From positions 1 through 14,059 of the forward strand of contig PXSU01000055.1 in the NCBI GenBank assembly GCA_003022745.1: a DNA stretch of 14,059 nt, in the 5' to 3' direction. This DNA comes from Halobacteriales archaeon SW_9_67_25. GTDB taxonomy: Archaea > Halobacteriota > Halobacteria > Halobacteriales > Haloarculaceae. Below, piece by piece: positions 4,080-13,300 of the stretch (within the stretch, counting starts at the first letter, position 1; each line of letters starts with the position of its first letter). Position numbers and translations under genes: made by a program. The notes below the pieces were generated by a model. The model saw nothing but the letters and a program-made list of their open reading frames with translations, did not search any database and was not told where the DNA came from.

Positions 4080-4895
4080 CTAGTCCACGGACGCGTCGAC
4101 GACTTCGTAGGTGATGGAACCGTCCTGGAGCGTGTCAGTGTGTGCCGAGAGGGCGTCCGCGACGACGAGCAAGAGGACATCCAGGCCTTTTGTGGCCGCC
4201 TCGCGAACGCCCTCGGCGGTGCCAAACCGGAGGTCGGGGTCGAGGTTGGCCTCCCGGGCGACCGCGGCGGCCTCGGTCCCGCTGACGGCGATCAGGTCGT
4301 GGTCGGCAGCCAGCTGGGCGACCCTGCCGGCGCCGACGGTGGCACTACCGCCGTTGCGGACGGTCGGGGCCGGGACCACGGTCACCGCCCCGAGGTCGTA
4401 GTCGACGACCCCCTCGAAGTCGGTGACGCCGACCTCGTGGTCGGCCTCGGCGTCCGTGATCGCGACGGCGGTTGCCGAGCCGGCGTCGCCGGGCGTGGCC
4501 CGGAGGTAGCCGTCGCGCATCGTCAGCGAGACGCGGTCGCCCTCGCTCATCGGCGCCGTCGCCAGGGCGCTCTCGACTTCGACCTGGCCGATGACGTCCT
4601 CGGAGACGTGGTCGACGAACGACCGCAGGGCGTCGGTCTGTGACATCAGCCAGTCGACGCCCTCCTTGGTGACCTCGTAGCGACCACGGCCGTGTTTCTC
4701 GACGTGGCCCTGCTTGACCAGTTCCTGGAGGTAGTTGCTCACCGCCTGGGAGGTGATGCCGACCTCGTCGGCGATCTCCTGCTGGCTCACCGCCGGCTGG
4801 CGCTCCGCGATCCCGACCAGGATCTGGTAGCGCGTCGCGTCGCGCTTGCTCCGGAGCACCCCCGACTCCGTTCCGGTCTGGACGTTCCCCGCCAT
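4080..4895 (-). CDS. winged-helix (MarR/ArsR-like) transcriptional regulator with C-terminal domain of unknown function
   Basis: A 271-residue cytoplasmic regulator. Residues 14-80 form a winged helix-turn-helix: SKRDATRYQILVGIAERQP, then SQQEIADEVGITSQAVSNYL as helix-turn-helix, and the wing GHVEKHGRGRYEVTKEG. The remaining ~190 residues form an alpha/beta domain (MRDGYLRATPGDAGSATAVA, VVDYDLGAVTVVPAPTV, GLDVLLLVVADALSAHT) known in haloarchaeal regulators but without an assigned ligand. The frame extends upstream to 4964, but the ATG at 4895 (MAGNVQTG) is preferred because family members begin near there and a TATA-like element lies about 30 bases before it. An inverted repeat over the predicted start site could be its own operator. 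It diverges from the cobalamin operon across 342 bases, so control of that operon is possible but unproven. Confidence 0.8.
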   Translation of the reverse strand: MAGNVQTGTESGVLRSKRDATRYQILVGIAERQPAVSQQEIADEVGITSQAVSNYLQELVKQGHVEKHGRGRYEVTKEGVDWLMSQTDALRSFVDHVSEDVIGQVEVESALATAPMSEGDRVSLTMRDGYLRATPGDAGSATAVAITDAEADHEVGVTDFEGVVDYDLGAVTVVPAPTVRNGGSATVGAGRVAQLAADHDLIAVSGTEAAAVAREANLDPDLRFGTAEGVREAATKGLDVLLLVVADALSAHTDTLQDGSITYEVVDASVD

Positions 4896-5191: not shown

Positions 5192-5234
5192 TAATACAAC
5201 CAAAATTGTTTTACGATATAGTGCATTTGTATTA
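5192..5234 (+). promoter_or_regulatory. inverted repeat TAATACAA-N27-TTGTATTA bracketing the cbiT core promoter
   Basis: The 8-base arms at 5192-5199 and 5227-5234 are perfect reverse complements. They lie on either side of the TATA element, the right arm ending three bases before the ATG at 5238. Centre-to-centre distance is 35 bases. Such AT-rich arms are rare in this genome. The placement suits a repressor that occludes the promoter. A hypothetical archaeal B12 regulator site (CBL-box) has been proposed by comparative genomics; whether this is the same motif is not known to me. Confidence 0.5.
5209..5218 (+). promoter_or_regulatory. TATA box of the cobalamin operon (cbiT)
   Basis: TTTTACGATA is centred about 26 bases before the ATG at 5238, so a leaderless operon transcript is expected. 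This decides the cbiT start: the frame is open further upstream to 5130, but that would place the promoter inside the coding region. Confidence 0.65.
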
Positions 5235-5237
5235 TGC

Positions 5238-5894
5238 ATGGCACAGACGCGACTGCCACACGACGCGAAGGCGGGGCCGACGAAGCCGGAGGTACGTGCG
5301 GTGACGCTTTCGAAGCTCGACCTCGCGCCCGGGGACCACTTCGCGGAGGTCGGCTCCTGTACTGGCGCAGTGACCATCGAGGCTGCGCGGCGTGCCGGGC
5401 GGGTGACCGCTCTCGAACGCAAGCCCACTCGGGCTGAGACGACCGTACAGAACCTCGCCGCGAACGGGCTGGAGCTCCGGACCGACCCCGTGACCCGCGC
5501 CGCGACAGACGGCGGCGGTCGGGAGGCGGGGACCGGGACTGGTGGGCAGGCCGACGTCGAAGTCCGGGTCGCGGAGGCCCCCGAGGGGTTGCCCGAGGAC
5601 GCCGACGCGCTCTTTCTCGGGGGGAGCCGCAACTACGAGGCAGTCCTCGACCACGCCGTCGAGACCGGGGTCGACCGGGTCGTGATGAACGTCTCCCGGC
5701 TGGAAGTCGCAGGCGCCGCGACCGCGGCCTTCCGCGAGCGGGACCTCTTGCAGGAGGTCGTGCAGTTCCAGGTCAGCCACGGCTACGAACTCGCGGGCGC
5801 GACGAGTTTCGATTCGGAGAACCCCGTCTACATGCTTGTCGGCGGCGCCGACGGCGGGAGTCGGGATGTCGCGACCGACGGGGGGAGTCGATGA
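5238..5894 (+). CDS. cbiT: cobalt-precorrin-6B C15-methyltransferase (decarboxylating) CbiT
   Basis: A 218-residue SAM-dependent methyltransferase that methylates C15 of the corrin precursor and decarboxylates the C12 acetate side chain (in some organisms fused to CbiE as CobL). The N-terminus LPHDAKAGPTKPEVRAVTLS is characteristic of CbiT, followed by SAM motif I EVGSCTGAVTIEAA (about 53-66), the acidic ALERK at the end of strand 2, and DALFLGGSRNYEAVLD with the GG(S/T) signature. The C-terminal VQFQVSHGYELAGATSFD region is conserved. Residues near 102-115 are a Gly/Thr-rich insertion typical of halophiles, and the tail repeats DGGSR. It is the first gene of the operon; its TGA overlaps the ATG of cbiL by four bases. 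No cbiE-like domain is attached or nearby. Confidence 0.92.
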   Translation: MAQTRLPHDAKAGPTKPEVRAVTLSKLDLAPGDHFAEVGSCTGAVTIEAARRAGRVTALERKPTRAETTVQNLAANGLELRTDPVTRAATDGGGREAGTGTGGQADVEVRVAEAPEGLPEDADALFLGGSRNYEAVLDHAVETGVDRVVMNVSRLEVAGAATAAFRERDLLQEVVQFQVSHGYELAGATSFDSENPVYMLVGGADGGSRDVATDGGSR

Positions 5895-6700
5895 CGCTGT
5901 ACGGCGTCGGGCTCGGCCCCGGCGAGGCGGAACTGGTGACCGTCCGGGGCAAGCGCGTGCTCGAATCGGCGGATGTCGTGTACTCGCCGGGGCGACTCTC
6001 CCGGTCGGTCGCGACCGAGTACGTCCCCGCGGAGCGGATCGGCGACCTGGATTTCCCGATGACACGGGACGAGGAGAAACTCCGCCGGGCCTGGAAGGAG
6101 GCCGCCGCCGAGGTGGCACCCCGGGCTCGCGAGGGCGAGGTCGCGTTCGTCACGCTGGGGGACCCGAACGTCTACTCCACCTTCGGCCACCTCCGGCGGA
6201 CGATGGCCGCGTTCCACGAGGACATCGACGTAGAGATCGTCCCCGGGGTGAGTGCAGTGACCGCGTTCGCCACCGTGCTGGGTGTCGAAATACCCTCGGG
6301 GTCGAGCCTGGCGTTGCGGGAGGCCGCGGGCGGCCACTCCCCGACCGGCCCCGACCGGATGGTCCTGTTCAAGATCACTGACGCGCCCGCGACCCACGAG
6401 GGTCTCGTCGAGGCCGGCTACGAGGTCACGTACGGCCGGCGCCTCTACATGGAACAGGGCGAGACGGTCGTCACCGACGACCCCGAAGAGATCGAGGACC
6501 GGGACTACTACACGCTGGCCTACGCAGAGAAACCCGGAGCCGGCGAACCCCAGGCGACCGCGAAGTTCGCCGCCGAAGAGCAATCCCCCACGGCGACGAC
6601 CGACGGCGGCCAGATCGAGGGCGGCGAGGTCGCAGAACTGGAACGGTCCGAGAGTCTCCTGTGTGGCGACGACCCGCCCGAGGGAGGTGAGTGGCGGTGA
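5891..6700 (+). CDS. cbiL: cobalt-precorrin-2 C20-methyltransferase CbiL
   Basis: A 269-residue tetrapyrrole methyltransferase that adds the C20 methyl group to cobalt-factor II/precorrin-2 using SAM. Family motifs are in order: YGVGLGPGEAELVTVRGKRVL (split at about residue 4-23), the YSPGRLSRSVA segment specific for CbiL/CobI, FVTLGDPNVYSTFGHL (about 84-99), EIVPGVSAVTAFATVLG (about 117-133) and the C-terminal KFAAEEQSP strand region. It is longer than the usual ~230-240 residues because of a C-terminal Gly/Glu/Thr-rich tail of about 45 residues that ends LLCGDDPPEGGEWR. The ATG overlaps the cbiT stop (ATGA), indicating translational coupling. CobI and CbiL cannot be separated by eye; the cobalt form is chosen from the presence of CbiX and CbiG. 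Confidence 0.9.
   Translation: MTLYGVGLGPGEAELVTVRGKRVLESADVVYSPGRLSRSVATEYVPAERIGDLDFPMTRDEEKLRRAWKEAAAEVAPRAREGEVAFVTLGDPNVYSTFGHLRRTMAAFHEDIDVEIVPGVSAVTAFATVLGVEIPSGSSLALREAAGGHSPTGPDRMVLFKITDAPATHEGLVEAGYEVTYGRRLYMEQGETVVTDDPEEIEDRDYYTLAYAEKPGAGEPQATAKFAAEEQSPTATTDGGQIEGGEVAELERSESLLCGDDPPEGGEWR
6683..6688 (+). promoter_or_regulatory. Shine-Dalgarno site that decides the cbiF start
   Basis: GGAGGT lies 8 bases before the GTG at 6697 but only 2 bases before an in-frame GTG at 6691. The normal spacing favours 6697, which also gives the GTGA overlap with the cbiL stop. Confidence 0.55.
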
Positions 6701-7614
6701 CAGACGGCGAGTCGAGCGACCCGGCCGGGAATGCGGGGGCCGACCCGCAAGACGCCATCGACGAGGCGAGTCGCGACCGCCGGGGGACCCGCCCGCAGAG
6801 GTTCACCGCTGGCGACACTCCCGAGGGAATACCGTTCGTCGGTGCCGGGCCGGGCGATCCCGGCCTGCTGACCGTCACTGGCCGGGAACTGTGCGAGGCT
6901 GCCGACCTCGTGGTCCACGCGGGGTCGCTGGTCAACAGCGAACTCCTGGACGCGTACTGTGACGACGCCGAGACCGTCTCCTCCATCGGCAAGGACCTAG
7001 AAGAGCTGATCCCGCTCATGGCCGACGCCTACGAGGCAGGCGAGACGGTCGTCCGCTTACACAGCGGCGACCCCGCCATCTACGGGGCTGCCCTCGAACA
7101 GATGGACGCGCTGGCGAGCGAAGGCGTGCCCGCCTACTTCGTCCCCGGCGTCACCTCGGCCTTCGCGGCCAGCGCAACCCTCCGGACGCAACTGACGCTG
7201 AACGGCGTCGCCAACCACGTCGCGTTCACCCGGCCCCGGGGCAAGACGCTCGACCCGGAGGAGGACCACATCGGCGAGTTCGTCGGGATGGGCGACGTGA
7301 CGACCTGTATCTACCTCGGTACCCACGCCGTCGGCGAGACGATGGACCGCCTGCTGGAGGCGGGCCACGACCCCGAGACGCCGGTGACGGTCGTCTACCA
7401 CGCCTCCTGGCCCGACGAGGACGTCATCGAGGGCACCATCGCCACCATCGGCGAGGCAATCGAGGCAGCGGGCTACCGCGCCTCCGCGCTTGTCATCATC
7501 GGCGAGGCTGTCGGGGAGGCGGGCTACGACCGCTCGTACCTCTACGACGGGTGGGCCTCGCGAGGACCGGATTCGGACGGTACCGACGGCGCCCTCCAGG
7601 AGGCAGACGACTGA
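6697..7614 (+). CDS. cbiF: cobalt-precorrin-4 C11-methyltransferase CbiF
   Basis: A 305-residue tetrapyrrole methyltransferase that methylates C11 of cobalt-precorrin-4. The core begins at about residue 45 with PFVGAGPGDPGLLTVTG, followed by AADLVVHAGSLVNSELLDAY, RLHSGDPAIYGAALEQM, FVPGVTSAFAASATL and HVAFTRPRGKT; the AGSLV and RLHSGDP/IYGA motifs are specific for CbiF/CobM. The VVYHASWPDEDVIEGTI segment near the C-terminus is also diagnostic. The first ~45 residues are an acidic, low-complexity extension not found in bacterial homologs (about 250 residues). The start is GTG 6697 by ribosome-site spacing; GTG 6691 in the same frame would add two residues. It is followed two bases later by cbiG. 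Confidence 0.93.
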   Translation: MTDGESSDPAGNAGADPQDAIDEASRDRRGTRPQRFTAGDTPEGIPFVGAGPGDPGLLTVTGRELCEAADLVVHAGSLVNSELLDAYCDDAETVSSIGKDLEELIPLMADAYEAGETVVRLHSGDPAIYGAALEQMDALASEGVPAYFVPGVTSAFAASATLRTQLTLNGVANHVAFTRPRGKTLDPEEDHIGEFVGMGDVTTCIYLGTHAVGETMDRLLEAGHDPETPVTVVYHASWPDEDVIEGTIATIGEAIEAAGYRASALVIIGEAVGEAGYDRSYLYDGWASRGPDSDGTDGALQEADD

Positions 7615-7616
7615 AA

Positions 7617-8645
7617 ATGAGTACGGACACCAATACCACGACAGACGGCAGTACAGACTCCGATAGCGACGGCAACACGGACACAGGAGGCGGTGACAGC
7701 GGTGGCGGCCACTGTTCGACCCCGGACTCCGACGGGGAGGTCGCCGAGGAGATAGCGATAATTTCCTTCGAACGCAAGATAGACACCGCCGAGGAGATCA
7801 AGACGGGCATCGGCGACCGCTACGAGACAATCGACATAATCGAGTACCACGGCGAGGTGTTCGCCGAACACTGGGGCGAGTACGACTGTTTCGTTGGCCT
7901 GATGGCCTCGGGCATCGCGATGCGCAAGACTGCTCCCTTGCTGGACGACAAGTGGGACGACCCTGCGGTGTGTGTCGTCGACGAGGAACTGACCTGGGCC
8001 ATCCCCATCACGGGCGGCCACCACGGCGCCAACCAGGTCGCGGGGGACCTGGCGACGATGGGTGCGGTGCCGGCGATGACCACGGCCTCGGAGGCGGCTG
8101 GCAAGCAGGGCGTCGAGGAGCGCGCGAAGGCACTCGATACGCACGTCGTCAACGGCGACTCCACTGTGGCGACAAACCTCGCCGTGCTGGACGAGAATCT
8201 CGGTCCGGTCGCGCGACTGGACGGCCCGCAGGCCGTCCTCGTAGGTGACGATGTGACCGTGCTCAAACGCAACAGCGACGACGGGGTCGTCCTCGGGACC
8301 GGGAGCGTCTCGGGCGCGAAGAAAGAGCAGTTCCTCGAAGCCTGGAAGCGTTCCCTCGAAGGTACCGACTACGGCCTCGACGACGTGGAGTTCGTCGCCA
8401 CGGGTACCCGGAAGGAAGACGAGGCGGGGCTGCTCGCTGCGGCAGAGGAACTGGGCGTGGGCGTCGTCTCCTTCTCGAAGGAGACACTGGAGGAGTTCGA
8501 GGGCCCGACACCCTCGCGGTCGAAGGAACTCATCGGCTGGCCGGGTATCGCGGAGGCGTCGGCCATCGCCGGCGGCCGCGACCACGACCTGCTGGTCGAG
8601 AAAGAACGCCACGACGAGGCCGTGACCGCGGCGGTGGGGCGGTAG
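7617..8645 (+). CDS. cbiG: cobalt-precorrin-5A hydrolase CbiG
   Basis: A 342-residue enzyme that opens the ring-A acetate lactone of cobalt-precorrin-5A and releases the C20 carbon as acetaldehyde. The N-terminal CbiG domain shows YDCFVGLMASGIAMRKTAPL and WAIPITGGHHGANQVA; the C-terminal domain shows GTGSVSGAKKEQFLEAW, TGTRKEDEAGLLAAAEELG and GIAEASAIAGG. ATG 7617 is chosen over an open frame from 7551 because of an AGGAGG site at 7598-7603, the position just after the cbiF stop, and the acidic composition beginning there. The first ~45 residues are Ser/Thr/Asp/Gly-rich and contain a lone HC pair (His32, Cys33). CbiG marks the anaerobic (early cobalt) pathway. Confidence 0.92.
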   Translation: MSTDTNTTTDGSTDSDSDGNTDTGGGDSGGGHCSTPDSDGEVAEEIAIISFERKIDTAEEIKTGIGDRYETIDIIEYHGEVFAEHWGEYDCFVGLMASGIAMRKTAPLLDDKWDDPAVCVVDEELTWAIPITGGHHGANQVAGDLATMGAVPAMTTASEAAGKQGVEERAKALDTHVVNGDSTVATNLAVLDENLGPVARLDGPQAVLVGDDVTVLKRNSDDGVVLGTGSVSGAKKEQFLEAWKRSLEGTDYGLDDVEFVATGTRKEDEAGLLAAAEELGVGVVSFSKETLEEFEGPTPSRSKELIGWPGIAEASAIAGGRDHDLLVEKERHDEAVTAAVGR

Positions 8646-8646
8646 G

Positions 8647-9570
8647 ATGGCGGGCGAGACGCCATCCGGGACCCCCACTCCCGGGGAGTACGGCACGCTG
8701 TACGTCGTCGGCATCGGCCCCGGGTTGCCCCACGCGATGACCCAGCGCGCGAAGGACGTCATCCGGACGGCCGACTGCGTGGTCGCGTCGAACCTCTATC
8801 AGGAGTTCCTCCGCCGGGACGGCACACTCCCGCCCGAGAGCGCCGAGGTGGGAGCAACAGCGGACGGCGGGACCGCCGCGGAAGGCGGAACCACCTCGGA
8901 GGGCGGAACCCTGCTGGAGCGGCCCGACGGGAGCCGCCAGGAACTCGTCCGGTCGACGATGGGCCGGCAGGTCGAACTGGCCCGCGAGGCCTTCGAGCGC
9001 GTACGGGACGGCGAGGACGTTGCCCACGTCTCGGGGGGCGACCCGAACGTCTACGGCAAGAGCGACCTCGTGTTCGTGATGGCCCGGGAGGAGGGGGCGA
9101 CGGACGTCCCCATCGAGATCGTCCCCGGCGTCACCGCGGCGCTTGGCGGCGCTGCGAACCTCGGTGCCCCCCTCTCGAACGACTTCTGTACGGTCTCGTT
9201 GTCCGATAAGTGGCGCGGCTGGTCCGAAATCGAGGAGAAACTCCGGGCCGCGGCCATCTCGGGGTTCGTCGTCTTCCTGTACAACTGCTGGCGCGACTAC
9301 GAGCGCGCAATCGAGGTATTGCGCCAGGAGCGCGCCGACGACGTGCCCGTGGCCATCATCAACGACGCCGGCCGCGGCGACGCCGGCCGCAACATAGAGG
9401 GCGAGACGTTCACCCTGACGACGCTGGGCGAAGCGACCGAGCACGACGAGGAAGTCGGCGGCATGGGCACGTCGATCCTCGTGGGCAACCACGAGACCGA
9501 GGAATGGGCAAACGATTACCGCGACTTTCTCGTCACCCCGCGCGGCGGGCGTGACGTGGAGGACTTCTGA
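8647..9570 (+). CDS. cbiH: diverged CbiH/CobJ-family precorrin methyltransferase (paralog 1)
   Basis: A 307-residue tetrapyrrole methyltransferase most like the C17-methyltransferase CbiH. Motifs kept: LYVVGIGPGLPHAMTQRA (about 18-35), HVSGGDPNVYGKSD (about 126-139), EIVPGVTAALGGAANLGAPL and the final LVTPRGG. Several residues typical of CbiH are changed: the GY(K/T)TY segment is ASNLYQ, the MC(K/G)E motif is replaced by STMGRQ, LSD..TPW reads LSDKWRGW, and YNP.S reads YNCWRD. Residues 71-88 are three tandem xx[DE]GGT units. It starts one base after the cbiG stop and overlaps the following true CbiH (TGATG). It may do another methylation or support ring contraction; its exact reaction is not decided by the sequence. 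Confidence 0.8.
   Translation: MAGETPSGTPTPGEYGTLYVVGIGPGLPHAMTQRAKDVIRTADCVVASNLYQEFLRRDGTLPPESAEVGATADGGTAAEGGTTSEGGTLLERPDGSRQELVRSTMGRQVELAREAFERVRDGEDVAHVSGGDPNVYGKSDLVFVMAREEGATDVPIEIVPGVTAALGGAANLGAPLSNDFCTVSLSDKWRGWSEIEEKLRAAAISGFVVFLYNCWRDYERAIEVLRQERADDVPVAIINDAGRGDAGRNIEGETFTLTTLGEATEHDEEVGGMGTSILVGNHETEEWANDYRDFLVTPRGGRDVEDF
8857..8910 (+). repeat. three 18-base units encoding xx[DE]GGT in paralog 1
   Basis: Three consecutive 18-base units encode TADGGT, AAEGGT and TSEGGT (residues 71-88) in a loop that is shorter in ordinary CbiH. The second and third units are closest at base level. This is an in-frame minisatellite-like expansion in a solvent loop. Confidence 0.65.
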
Positions 9571-10541
9571 TGAGCACCGACACCACCCCCGACACCGACA
9601 CGAGTACAGGCACGAGCACAGACACTGACACCGACGCGAGCACAGAATCCAAGTGCGGCGCATCGACGCCCGATACCGCCGACGCGGGCGCGAGCACGGA
9701 GTCGAAATGTGGCGCCAGCTCGACCGACGAGAAGGAGGTCGGGTCGACGGTTGAGGACTTCGACGCAGAGCCCGGCCGACTGGTGGCCGTGGGCCTCGGT
9801 CCCGGTCAACCGGAGGGAATGACCCAGCGCGCACAGACTGCCCTCGGGGAGGTCGAACACATCGTCGGCTACACGACCTACATCGACCTCATCCCGGACG
9901 AGATTACCGAGGACGCCGACGACATCTACTCGACGCCGATGTGTGGCGAGGTCTCCCGCACCGAGGAGGCAATCGACCGCGCCCTGGCGGGCAACGACGT
10001 CGGCATCGTCGGCAGCGGCGACCCGAACGTCTACGCCCTGGCGGGCCTCGCGCTGGAAATCCTCGAATCCAAGGGCGGCACGGCCTCGATGGTCGACTTC
10101 GAGGTCGTCCCCGGGGTGCCAGCCGCACAGTCCTGTGCAGCCCGGCTGGGCGCGCCGCTGGTCAACGACACCGTCTCGATCTCGCTGTCGGACCACCTGA
10201 CGCCGATGCCAGAGATCGAATCGCGGCTCCACGCGGTCGCCGGAGAAGGGTTCACTATCGCCATCTACAACCCCTGGAGCCGGAAACGGCGCGAGAACTT
10301 CCAGAAGTGCTGTGAGATTCTCCTCAATCACCGCGACCCGGAGACGCCCGTGGGCGTCGTCCACGGGGCGGGCCGGGAGGACGAGGCCACGGAGATCGTC
10401 GAACTCGGGGACCTGGAAGAACTGGGCGAGACGGATCTGATCGACATGACAACGACGATCCTCGTCGGCACCGGGGACACCTACGTGTGGGACGACCGGA
10501 TGGTCACCCCGCGGGGCTACGAGAGCAAGTACGACTACTGA
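9570..10541 (+). CDS. cbiH: cobalt-precorrin-3 C17-methyltransferase CbiH (canonical copy)
   Basis: A 323-residue enzyme that methylates C17 and contracts the macrocycle, expelling C20 into the lactone later opened by CbiG. All CbiH hallmarks are present: VAVGLGPGQPEGMTQRA (about 73-89), GYTTYIDLIPDEI, TPMCGEVSRTEEAID, IVGSGDPNVYALAGLALEIL, VPGVPAAQSCAARLGAPLVND, SISLSDHLTPMPEIE, IYNPWSRKRRENF and MVTPRGY. The ~65-residue N-terminal extension is Thr/Asp/Ser-rich and holds the sequence ASTESKCGAS twice (residues 23-32 and 41-50). The ATG at 9570 overlaps the previous stop (TGATG), which supports this start and the extension as translated. Confidence 0.93.
   Translation: MSTDTTPDTDTSTGTSTDTDTDASTESKCGASTPDTADAGASTESKCGASSTDEKEVGSTVEDFDAEPGRLVAVGLGPGQPEGMTQRAQTALGEVEHIVGYTTYIDLIPDEITEDADDIYSTPMCGEVSRTEEAIDRALAGNDVGIVGSGDPNVYALAGLALEILESKGGTASMVDFEVVPGVPAAQSCAARLGAPLVNDTVSISLSDHLTPMPEIESRLHAVAGEGFTIAIYNPWSRKRRENFQKCCEILLNHRDPETPVGVVHGAGREDEATEIVELGDLEELGETDLIDMTTTILVGTGDTYVWDDRMVTPRGYESKYDY
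9636..9719 (+). repeat. two copies of a 30-base unit encoding ASTESKCGAS
   Basis: Units at 9636-9665 and 9690-9719 encode the identical ten residues with one Cys each. The bases differ at nine of thirty positions, all synonymous, including a TCG to AGC serine change. Confidence 0.85.
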
Positions 10542-10882
10542 TGTACCGGGTTACCATCGACAAAGACGCCTGCGAGGGCATATTCGCCTGCCTGGTCCGG
10601 GACGACCGGTTCGTCGAGAGCGACGACGGGCTGGCGGATTTCGATACGGCGGCTGCCGAGACCTACCGGACCGGTGACGACAGCGTGATCGCGGAGCTCG
10701 ACGACGACCGCATCGCGGACGCCCGGCAGGCCGCGGCGGCCTGTCCACCCGGTGCAATCACCGTCGAAGAAGTAGAGGCCGTCACCGAGACCGACGACGA
10801 AGTCGACCGGCAGGGAGACTGCGAGGGTAGCAGCGGTGCGGAGACTGCCGACGAGCGAAGCGAGGAGGCAGTATGTCGGTAG
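10541..10882 (+). CDS. single-cluster ferredoxin, [3Fe-4S]-type Cys pattern
   Basis: A 113-residue protein starting MYRVTIDKDACEGIFACLVR. Cys11 and Cys17 are separated by five residues (C-x5-C) and the third Cys68 sits in AAAACPPGAITVEE, the CP..AI ending of ferredoxins. The second Cys of the usual C-x2-C-x2-C motif is Ile14. This spacing is that of [3Fe-4S] ferredoxins that serve actinobacterial P450s, so a three-Cys cluster is likely. A tail of about 30 residues adds Cys94 and Cys112. The ATG overlaps the cbiH stop (TGATG), and the frame upstream of it is a shadow. Its place in the operon suggests an electron donor or cluster partner for a cobalamin enzyme, perhaps CbiH or a reductase; the partner is inferred. 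Confidence 0.8.
   Translation: MYRVTIDKDACEGIFACLVRDDRFVESDDGLADFDTAAAETYRTGDDSVIAELDDDRIADARQAAAACPPGAITVEEVEAVTETDDEVDRQGDCEGSSGAETADERSEEAVCR
10862..10868 (+). promoter_or_regulatory. Shine-Dalgarno site of the LAGLIDADG-like gene
   Basis: GAGGAGG lies 4 bases before the ATG at 10873, inside the end of the ferredoxin gene. It supports this start and the 10-base overlap of the two genes. Confidence 0.5.
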
Positions 10883-11553
10883 AGACGGGCTCGCCCCGCG
10901 ACTTGCTCGAACGGCACCCGGAGACGGCCTACTTCTGGGGTCGGGTCGTCGGGGACGGCGACGTTTCGACGGACTGCGTGACCGTCAGGACGGCCGACGA
11001 GACAGCAGCCCGGCGGCTGGCCGCCATCGCGGGTGCCGAGTGCGTCGACCACCGCATCCGCGAGCGCGAGTACGCCCACGACACCGCCATCACCCGCCAG
11101 GAGGATGTCTACACCGTCCAGGTTCTGGGCAGTCTCGGCGACCGCGCGAGCGCCTCGCTGGGCCTGCCACTCGACGACGGGCCCGGCGGCTACCGGCTCG
11201 ACGTCTTCGACGACCATCGCCGACAACTACTTCGCGGGCTTCTGGAGGGCTGTGGCACGGTCTGTTTCAAATCCTCCTCGGACTCCGTGGGCGTCTCGTT
11301 CGTCCACGACCGACGGCGGCTGCTGGAACGGGTCAAGGGACTGCTCGCGGACCTCCCGGTCGACGCGCCCGCGGGGTCGATCTCCGAGACTTCCTCGGGC
11401 GGGCACTGGTTCGGTCTCGACGACGGCGCCGTCCCGGAGGTGGGGCCGTGGCTCTACGAGGGGAGCGAGGGCTCGGGGCTGTTCTCGCCGCCCCGCCGTC
11501 GCAAACTCCGGCGGAGCCTCGACCGGGCCGAGAACGTCCAGGTGGAGGGATGA
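10873..11553 (+). CDS. cobalamin-operon protein with two degenerate LAGLIDADG-like repeats
   Basis: A 226-residue protein of unknown function. It reads as two related halves. Half one: YFWGRVVGDGDVSTDCVTVR (residues 20-39) then an alpha/beta stretch with AARRLAAIAG. Half two: RRQLLRGLLEGCGTVCFKSS (117-136) then VGVSFVHDRRRLLERVKGLL. Each matches the LAGLIDADG pattern (helix ending G.GxV, strand, then helix), and the end, WLYEGSEGSGLFSPPRRRKL, resembles the C-terminal part of that fold. In half one the acid is kept (Asp28 of GDG), in half two it is Cys127. Cys35, Cys57 and Cys131 add to possible metal ligands. From memory, haloarchaeal B12 clusters carry a gene of this kind with no assigned role. 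The stop overlaps cbiX (ATGA). Fold assignment is by eye. Confidence 0.7.
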   Translation: MSVETGSPRDLLERHPETAYFWGRVVGDGDVSTDCVTVRTADETAARRLAAIAGAECVDHRIREREYAHDTAITRQEDVYTVQVLGSLGDRASASLGLPLDDGPGGYRLDVFDDHRRQLLRGLLEGCGTVCFKSSSDSVGVSFVHDRRRLLERVKGLLADLPVDAPAGSISETSSGGHWFGLDDGAVPEVGPWLYEGSEGSGLFSPPRRRKLRRSLDRAENVQVEG

Positions 11554-12845
11554 GCCGGAGCGGTCCCGCGGATGCCCGCGGAGGGACGGAGGCGACCGGC
11601 GAAGGCACCGGAACCGGGACCGAGGCCGCGCCGGGGACGCTCGCCGACCGACTCGACGACGAGGCCATCCTGCTGGTCGGGCACGGCTCGCGCCGCGAGA
11701 AGTCGAACGAGCAGGTCCGGGATCTCGCGGCCGCGCTCGAGAAGCGGCTCGGCCTGCCGGTCGATGCGGCCTTCCTCGAACTGGCCGCGCCCGCTATCCC
11801 GGACGCGATTGCGGGCCTCGCTGGTGCCGTCTCGGAGGTCACGGTCGTCCAGCTCTCGTTGTTCGCGGCCAGCCACGTCAAAAACGACGTCCCCCTGGCC
11901 GTCGAGGGGGCCCGCGCCGACCACCCCGGGCTGACCATCAACACCGGGGCCCACCTGGGGGTCCACCCGGCAATACTGGACCTGCTCGACGACCGCGCGG
12001 CAGCGGTCGAGGCGGAGATGGGCCTCGACCGGGTCGCGGACGACGTGGCAGTCGCACTCTGTGCCCGCGGGTCGAGCGACCCCGACGCCAACGCGGACGT
12101 CCACAAGCTCGCGCGCCTCCTCTACGAGGGGCGTGACTTCGATTGCGTGGAGGCGACGTTCGTCGGCGTCACCGACCCGCTGCTCGACGAGACGCTGCAC
12201 GGCCTGGCCAAACGCCGCCCCGACGCCGTGGTCGTCTTGCCCTACATGCTCGGGGACGGCGTCCTGACGGGGCGCATCCGCGACGGTGCAACGGAGTTCG
12301 ACGACGAGTACCCCTACGTGGACGCGGCGGCGGGTGACCCGCTCGGGACCGACTCGCGGCTGCTTGACGTGCTGGCCGACCGCTGGCAGGAGGCCCGCAC
12401 CGGCAGCGTCGAGATGTCCTGTGACACCTGCAAGTACAAGGTGGAACTGGACGGCTACGAGGAGGACGTCGGCGGCGCCCGCGCGATGTTGCGAGCGCTG
12501 ACCCACCAGGAGACACACGCCGACCGCGAGAACGTCGACGACGACCCGCACGTCCACGACGCCCCCGAGAGCCACGTCGCCGTCTGTACCAACCAGACCT
12601 GTGCTGCCGACGGCGCGCCGGCAGTCCTCGAACGGCTCCGCCAGGCGGCCCGCGACTCCGATGAGTGTGACGCCCGCATTACGCGCTCGTCGTGTCTCGG
12701 CCGGTGTGGCGAGGGACCCATCGCCGCGGTCTACCCGGACGGCGTCTGGTACGGCAACCTCTCGCCGGAGGACGCCGAGGAAGTCGTCTCTTCGCACCTC
12801 GACCGGGGCCGCATCGTCTCGGAACTGGTCGATCAGACGCTCTGA
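11550..12845 (+). CDS. cbiX: sirohydrochlorin cobaltochelatase CbiX fused to a C-terminal [2Fe-2S] domain
   Basis: A 431-residue enzyme that inserts cobalt into sirohydrochlorin, the committing step of anaerobic B12 synthesis. Residues 38-155 are a CbiX half with AILLVGHGSRREKSNEQV (His45) and SLFAASHVKNDVPLAVE (His109), the metal-binding histidines. Residues 166-285 are a second half in which GHGS has become CARGSSDPDAN, so it lacks that His but keeps VVVLPYMLGDGVLTGRI. Next is a MSCDTCKYKVELDGYEEDVG segment (Cys291, Cys294) known from long CbiX proteins, then a His/Asp-rich linker. Residues 342-415 form a thioredoxin-like ferredoxin domain with CTNQTC (Cys346, Cys351) and SCLGRCGEGP (Cys382, Cys386). 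ATG 11550 overlaps the previous stop; the frame upstream of it is a shadow. Confidence 0.93.
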   Translation: MSRSGPADARGGTEATGEGTGTGTEAAPGTLADRLDDEAILLVGHGSRREKSNEQVRDLAAALEKRLGLPVDAAFLELAAPAIPDAIAGLAGAVSEVTVVQLSLFAASHVKNDVPLAVEGARADHPGLTINTGAHLGVHPAILDLLDDRAAAVEAEMGLDRVADDVAVALCARGSSDPDANADVHKLARLLYEGRDFDCVEATFVGVTDPLLDETLHGLAKRRPDAVVVLPYMLGDGVLTGRIRDGATEFDDEYPYVDAAAGDPLGTDSRLLDVLADRWQEARTGSVEMSCDTCKYKVELDGYEEDVGGARAMLRALTHQETHADRENVDDDPHVHDAPESHVAVCTNQTCAADGAPAVLERLRQAARDSDECDARITRSSCLGRCGEGPIAAVYPDGVWYGNLSPEDAEEVVSSHLDRGRIVSELVDQTL

Positions 12846-12928
12846 TGCCGACATCGCACGAAGCACTCAGGTATCGCGCGCATTACCGAACCGACGCACC
12901 CACGTACCACGACACACGACACACACCC

Positions 12929-13300
12929 ATGGCCTGTCAAGAACTCGAAGCACTGCGACTCGGACTGATGAACGTCCTCGGGACCGAAGACGAGAGCGTC
13001 CGCCAGCATGCCGAGGCGGAACTCGACGAGGACCTCTCGGGTCCTATCGAGGCACTGACCGACGCGGAGACGCTCGCCGAAATCGGCCGCCACCTCGACG
13101 CGGCGCTGGTCGACCTGGAGGAAGACGTCGCCGAGACCGACCCCGGAACGGACGAGTACGACTACCTGCGAGGCCGCCTGGTGGCGGTCCGTGACGCCGA
13201 ACGCGACGTTGCGGCGCTCACCCGGCAGGGCGAGGCCCTGCTGGAGGGCTACGGGGAGGCCCACGACCTCCTGCACGAACTGTTCCCGGTCGAGGACTGA
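12929..13300 (+). CDS. DUF3209 family protein
   Basis: A 123-residue acidic, all-helical cytoplasmic protein beginning MACQELEALRLGLMNVLG and ending HDLLHELFPVED, which matches the DUF3209 family of haloarchaeal cobalamin clusters as I recall it. The family function is unknown; its steady linkage to cbiX suggests a role near cobalt handling or chelation. The frame is also open from an ATG at 12845 that overlaps the cbiX stop (TGATG). That start would add 28 residues with four histidines (MPTSHEALRYRAHY onward). ATG 12929 is preferred because the family begins with MAC or MSC. The 83 bases between are CA-rich with no clear TATA box or ribosome site. Confidence 0.82.
   Translation: MACQELEALRLGLMNVLGTEDESVRQHAEAELDEDLSGPIEALTDAETLAEIGRHLDAALVDLEEDVAETDPGTDEYDYLRGRLVAVRDAERDVAALTRQGEALLEGYGEAHDLLHELFPVED

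Follow-up and report, generated by a model that had tools for sequence, protein, structure and literature searches.

The window analysed here, a stretch of 14,059 nucleotides of the Halobacteriales archaeon SW_9_67_25 (contig PXSU01000055.1), carries an operon of the cobalt-early route to vitamin B12 in the order cbiT, cbiL, cbiF, cbiG, cbiH1, cbiH2, ferredoxin, LAG, cbiX and a DUF3209 gene. The subject of this study is LAG, a protein with a predicted LAGLIDADG fold. Based on the gene order in Table 3 of PMC8305020, its Haloferax volcanii counterpart would be HVO_B0055, which an excerpt of that paper records as 'function unassigned' (PMC8305020). A first-pass annotation, made from the sequence alone, had described LAG as locked into the operon by a 10-base overlap upstream and an ATGA overlap downstream; the open reading frames bore this out, with the ferredoxin ending at 10882 and CbiX starting at 11550. 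No Rfam family reached its gathering score anywhere in the window, hence no known cobalamin riboswitch was seen. The features of LAG and its operon are as follows.

10873..11553, + strand: LAG, 226 amino acids, the predicted LAGLIDADG-fold protein studied here (open reading frame, Pfam, predicted structure and orthologs)
10939..10959, + strand: first helix end of LAGLIDADG type, G23-G29 (GRVVGDG), including the non-conserved Asp28 (internal alignment of the halves)
11236..11271, + strand: second helix end of LAGLIDADG type and the next strand, G122-K133, with the invariant Cys127 and Cys131
11077..11079, + strand: codon of the invariant His69 (81/81 and 18/18 sequences)
10541..10882, + strand: 4Fe-4S ferredoxin with a single cluster (PF13459); its last 10 bases overlap the start of LAG
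11550..12845, + strand: cobaltochelatase CbiX, ending in a thioredoxin-like [2Fe-2S] domain (PF01903 and PF01257)
12926..13300, + strand: DUF3209 gene (PF11483), start inferred from the Pfam match
5238..10541, + strand: cbiT, cbiL, cbiF, cbiG, cbiH1 and cbiH2, the cobalt-early operon core (cbiT start at 5238 inferred)

Comparison of LAG with the Pfam family LAGLIDADG_3 gave 19.7 bits (E 0.0011), just below the cut-off of 22.5 bits, and 17 of 32 aligned LAG homologs matched the same family at E ≤ 0.01, the best at 1.3e-6. The predicted structure aligned with LAGLIDADG proteins across almost its full length, and the match to WhiA covered residues 3-226; in a viral structure library, general LAGLIDADG and intein proteins with 9-21% identity were among the matches listed. 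Two alpha-beta-beta-alpha-beta-beta-alpha halves packed on the LAGLIDADG helices were found in the predicted fold. Taken together, the LAGLIDADG_3 score, the homolog matches and the near-full-length structural match make the likeness more than chance. Sequence searches of solved structures, either with the protein or with a 32-row profile, gave no match up to E 10, and the relation became visible solely through comparison of the predicted structure. The fold that the first-pass annotation had proposed is thus well supported as a prediction, since the comparison returned LAGLIDADG proteins and not an unrelated fold. From the fold alone, we infer that an ancestor of LAG may have been mobile. A search of NCBIfam with the LAG protein gave no match; the family PF26411 is carried by at least 120 of 731 LAG homologs (those listed), and likewise by P0122 and P0123. 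In the open-licence literature we found no paper that names the fold of this protein or joins LAGLIDADG proteins with haloarchaeal cobalamin biosynthesis, nor any on DUF3209.

In LAGLIDADG enzymes the catalytic acid is the residue preceding the last glycine of each motif, and the title of a matched PDB entry, 'I-DmoI E117A', agrees with this rule. The LAG motifs are FWGRVVGDG (21-29) and LLRGLLEGCG (119-128), the latter followed by Cys131 within CFKSS. Because the halves align D28 with C127 (xxG23xxxxD28G against xxG122xxxxC127G), Cys127 occupies the second catalytic-acid position, as had been noticed at first reading. Conservation was assessed over 81 orthologs, namely the window and 80 named loci (the best 80 of 109 loci), whose search pattern itself includes the Cys stretch and therefore biases the sample toward conserved Cys. 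Position 28 was D in 41 sequences, S in 29, G in 6 and N in 5. The suggestion that Asp28 is a retained catalytic acid therefore failed, as it is absent from 40/81 orthologs; close relatives alone would have misled on this point, since 31 of the 32 closer homologs (alignment A1) keep it. Acids at both catalytic positions occurred in 0/81 orthologs, and loss of an intact endonuclease site, also proposed at the outset, is well supported from the alignments: LAG is in all probability endonuclease-dead.

Of the residues singled out in the first-pass annotation, the two Cys stood the comparison that Asp28 did not. Potential metal ligands are conserved in the aligned sequences: Cys127, Cys131 and His69 were invariant in 81/81 orthologs and in 18/18 sequences thinned to <70% identity, a set that includes two divergent homologs (the G021 and G183 copies) found with a profile and not with the pattern. 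Also invariant in the thinned set were, among others, Arg121, Glu125, Thr129, Arg208 and Lys211; position 133 was Lys in 17/18 and Arg in 1/18. The second half was far better conserved over strands b1-b2, with a mean entropy of 0.50 bits vs. 1.72 in the first half, and the halves were close over strands b3-b4 (1.12 against 1.35 bits).

Ferredoxin, LAG and CbiX were contiguous in 80/80 named loci, which had been selected for carrying LAG; CbiH2 preceded them in 79/80, and DUF3209 followed CbiX in 75/80, several of the other five being cut contigs. The fixed place in the B12 operon, an early proposal, is borne out by these counts. The one exception seen in the survey was genome G014, where CbiH2 is followed by LAG and CbiX without a ferredoxin match between, and a ferredoxin lies elsewhere with CbiG. 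Among 194 genomes of the class, LAG was found in 102 and CbiG in 106. All 102 LAG genomes have CbiG, so that LAG occurred in 102/106 CbiG-positive vs. 0/88 CbiG-negative genomes (Fisher p ~4e-51, a nominal value because the genomes are related). In a survey of 294 genomes of the phylum, whose share from outside the class is not stated, LAG matches were found in 24, all from the window's own order. DUF3209 was found in 103/194 class genomes, exactly the 102 with LAG and G052; it also matched a Thermus control genome. LAG as a fixed member of the haloarchaeal cobalt-early B12 operon is accordingly a well-supported conclusion.

The operon context favours metal handling by LAG. Our reading, to which we assign a probability of roughly 0.4, is that LAG is a domesticated, endonuclease-dead LAGLIDADG scaffold, held as a constant accessory in the prevailing form of the cobalt-early B12 operon of haloarchaea and re-used for the handling of a metal, probably cobalt, beside CbiX. 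In the former active-site region, Cys127 stands at a catalytic position with Cys131 four residues further on. We infer that these two residues and His69 form one site, which most likely binds a transition metal (probably Co2+), and that LAG partners with CbiX, either handing cobalt to the chelatase or keeping free cobalt low. By analogy, other CbiX enzymes are proposed to use their His-rich tail in much this way: cobalt supply to the cobaltochelatase has been suggested for CobW and for the His-rich tail of CbiX-L (PMC7689651, in excerpt). The likeness is in the proposed role only, as the folds are unrelated; CobW is described in the same source as a GTPase with a CxCC motif, and LAG has CxxxC and a distant His with no GTPase domain in Pfam. 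Counting CobW domains in 12 genomes did not tell those with LAG from those without it.

Four CbiG genomes lack LAG (G001, G007, G129 and G052). In the first three, CbiT, L, F, G, H1 and H2 are present and CbiX is without the [2Fe-2S] domain; no ferredoxin, LAG or DUF3209 match was found in the 18-kb cbi locus, and no DUF3209 match genome-wide. In a midpoint-rooted tree of five joined Cbi proteins, for which 74 of 87 loci were complete enough, these three grouped as a single clade with support 0.999, across the root from the remaining 71 loci, and hence count as one event. G052 was nested among the remaining loci and has oxidases, DUF3209 and ferredoxin; here (L089, 9703-10644) a short His-tailed CbiX occupies the LAG slot, next to an ordinary long CbiX. 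A long His-rich tail was present on a CbiX copy in 4/4 LAG-less CbiG genomes. Among LAG-bearing loci, CbiX tails were readable in 75/81, 74 with 4-9 His and one (L023) with 26. Loci L087, L088 and L090 represent a second kind of cbi operon in haloarchaea, which lacks ferredoxin, LAG, the [2Fe-2S] CbiX domain and DUF3209; their genomes have no heme-copper oxidase.

Several points weigh against a cobalt-handling role. In locus L023, LAG occurs together with a CbiX whose tail is rich in His, with no [2Fe-2S] domain or DUF3209 match, which means that LAG and such a tail can coexist. The His-tail pattern amounts to about two independent events, the clade of G001, G007 and G129 and, separately, G052. 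Since tail and [2Fe-2S] domain share the same end of CbiX, the tail may trade with the domain and not with LAG. The invariant Arg121, Arg208 and Lys211, together with Lys133 (17/18), would also fit the binding of a nucleic acid or an anionic ligand. Finally, the metal-transporter context was seen in a single genome, where two cation-efflux genes flank a distant LAG homolog that, in keeping with our reading, retains Cys127, Cys131 and His69. The row, in a Halorutilales-like genome (L092, 7445-10454, - strand), also includes a rhodanese gene.

An unlikely though serious alternative is that LAG acts as a WhiA-like DNA-binding regulator of the cbi and cbiM genes, with cobalt or a corrinoid as its signal and perhaps a promoter palindrome as its site. 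WhiA (DUF199), a bacterial transcription factor, is likewise a domesticated LAGLIDADG protein, and joins this fold to a helix-turn-helix domain (PMC11701221, in excerpt). LAG differs in that its LAGLIDADG match runs near the full length of its 226 amino acids, with no helix-turn-helix domain matched in Pfam; the Cys residues and the B12 context are peculiar to it. Two features upstream of the operon bear on the question.

5192..5213, + strand: conserved palindrome TAnTACAA-N6-TTGTTTTA before cbiT, in its likely promoter; putative operator of cobalt/B12 genes
4083-4895, - strand: gene of a winged-helix protein (DUF7839 domain), oriented divergently from cbiT

The core CAAN6TTG was found in the 90 bases that precede the cbiT anchor of 70/71 loci (simple shuffles: mean 1.7, maximum 8), and the exact pattern CAANCNNAATTGTTTTA occurred in 79/106 CbiG-positive vs. 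1/88 CbiG-negative genomes. Fifteen loci chosen for extra or second sites held 17 sites. Eight of them precede cbiT, with a ninth (L137) probably doing so, three precede cbiH1 and three a CbiM-like open reading frame, cbiT and cbiH1 having been identified by eye from translations; two of the three CbiM-like frames were tested and both were confirmed as PF01891. The remaining two sites, in L142 and in L143 (from a CbiG-negative genome), precede no recognised gene. The cbiM and cbiH1 sites lie in L134, L140, L141, L145, L146 and L147. It was also observed that the 22-base cbiT palindrome is highly conserved, lies over the likely cbiT promoter and often has a second CAAN6TTG 20 bases away. Judging from these motifs, a cobalt/B12 regulon seems to exist in haloarchaea, with the palindrome resembling its operator.

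The reader of this operator is less easily identified with LAG. CAAN6TTG is kept before cbiT in 4/4 LAG-less loci, which weakens the case for the cbiT palindrome as LAG's own site, and because it persists in these genomes, LAG is unlikely to be the sole reader or regulator at the cbi site. Strands b1-b2 of the first half, the would-be reader of one arm, are poorly conserved (the entropies given above), although b3-b4 differ less, and the 20-base spacing of the second copy suits a multimeric binder better. Another candidate for the palindrome reader is the DUF7839 winged-helix protein, whose gene adjoins cbiT in the window and in 14 other loci; its presence decides nothing, since it was matched in 20/20 chosen genomes, CbiG-positive or not.

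It is more improbable still that LAG serves as an iron-sulphur or redox partner, its Cys and His holding a cluster or a redox-active thiol pair that cooperates with the neighbouring ferredoxin and the [2Fe-2S] CbiX domain so that the pathway can operate under air. LAG does travel with both of these proteins, and heme-copper oxidase was found in none of the three LAG-less genomes without the module (G001, G007, G129) and in the other 9 of the 12 genomes tested. However, the aerobic contrast comes from one clade, the invariant possible ligands number only three, and the G021 homolog sits among metal-efflux genes and not with a ferredoxin.

A further proposal, that LAG fills the CbiD or CbiJ step, for which gaps in the pathway have been published, we regard as very improbable. 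HVO_B0055 is one of four unassigned cluster genes put forward as candidates (PMC8305020, in excerpt), and in line with the published gap the CbiD and CbiJ families matched 0/194 genomes. The absence of CbiJ is the weaker test because its model detects few controls: among 14 control genomes CbiD matched 6 and CbiJ just 3, missing two archaeal controls that match CbiG. G001, G007, G129 and G052, however, have CbiG and the core without a LAG, CbiD or CbiJ match, so that LAG is unlikely to be a general answer to the gap; CbiH1 is present in all four, and a LAGLIDADG fold is not expected of a methyltransferase or reductase. An active, mobile homing endonuclease sitting in the operon by chance can be practically dismissed, since, the predicted fold apart, the sequence results speak against it: both catalytic acids occur in 0/81 orthologs, the same slot is kept in 80/80 loci, and in the survey LAG is confined to CbiG-positive genomes.

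Among known enzymes, the nearest are I-DmoI and further monomeric LAGLIDADG homing endonucleases of archaea (I-Tsp061I, PI-PfuI). LAG differs from these in lacking the catalytic acid pair, in lying outside any intron or intein, fixed among B12 genes, and in its invariant Cys127, Cys131 and His69; the sporadic occurrence typical of mobile homing endonucleases is replaced by a distribution that tracks CbiG over the 194 genomes. Domesticated LAGLIDADG proteins are few, comprising WhiA, yeast HO and some maturases. No difference at the family level was found between LAG and HVO_B0055 or PF26411. The accession PF26411 and the locus tag HVO_B0055 were already known; what this analysis adds is the predicted fold, the loss of the active site, the set of Cys and His residues and the distribution.

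For the pathway, the gap problem is narrowed: LAG, the ferredoxin and DUF3209, which by gene order match three of the four candidates, are unmatched in the cbi locus of one clade. Because these three have no match where the core genes remain and CbiH1 is present, attention shifts to CbiH1, which had already been flagged as a gap candidate (PMC8305020, in excerpt). For the family, a broader and rather doubtful idea is that the metal centre with which a homing endonuclease cleaves DNA was remodelled into a transition-metal site, a catalytic acid giving way to Cys, and that haloarchaea may thereby have gained a LAGLIDADG-based family of cobalt chaperones or metal sensors, in which one branch would act for the B12 cobaltochelatase and a deep branch for cation-efflux transporters. 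If true, the conversion of a nuclease metal centre into a Cys/His site would exemplify a new path by which a selfish gene becomes a metabolic one.
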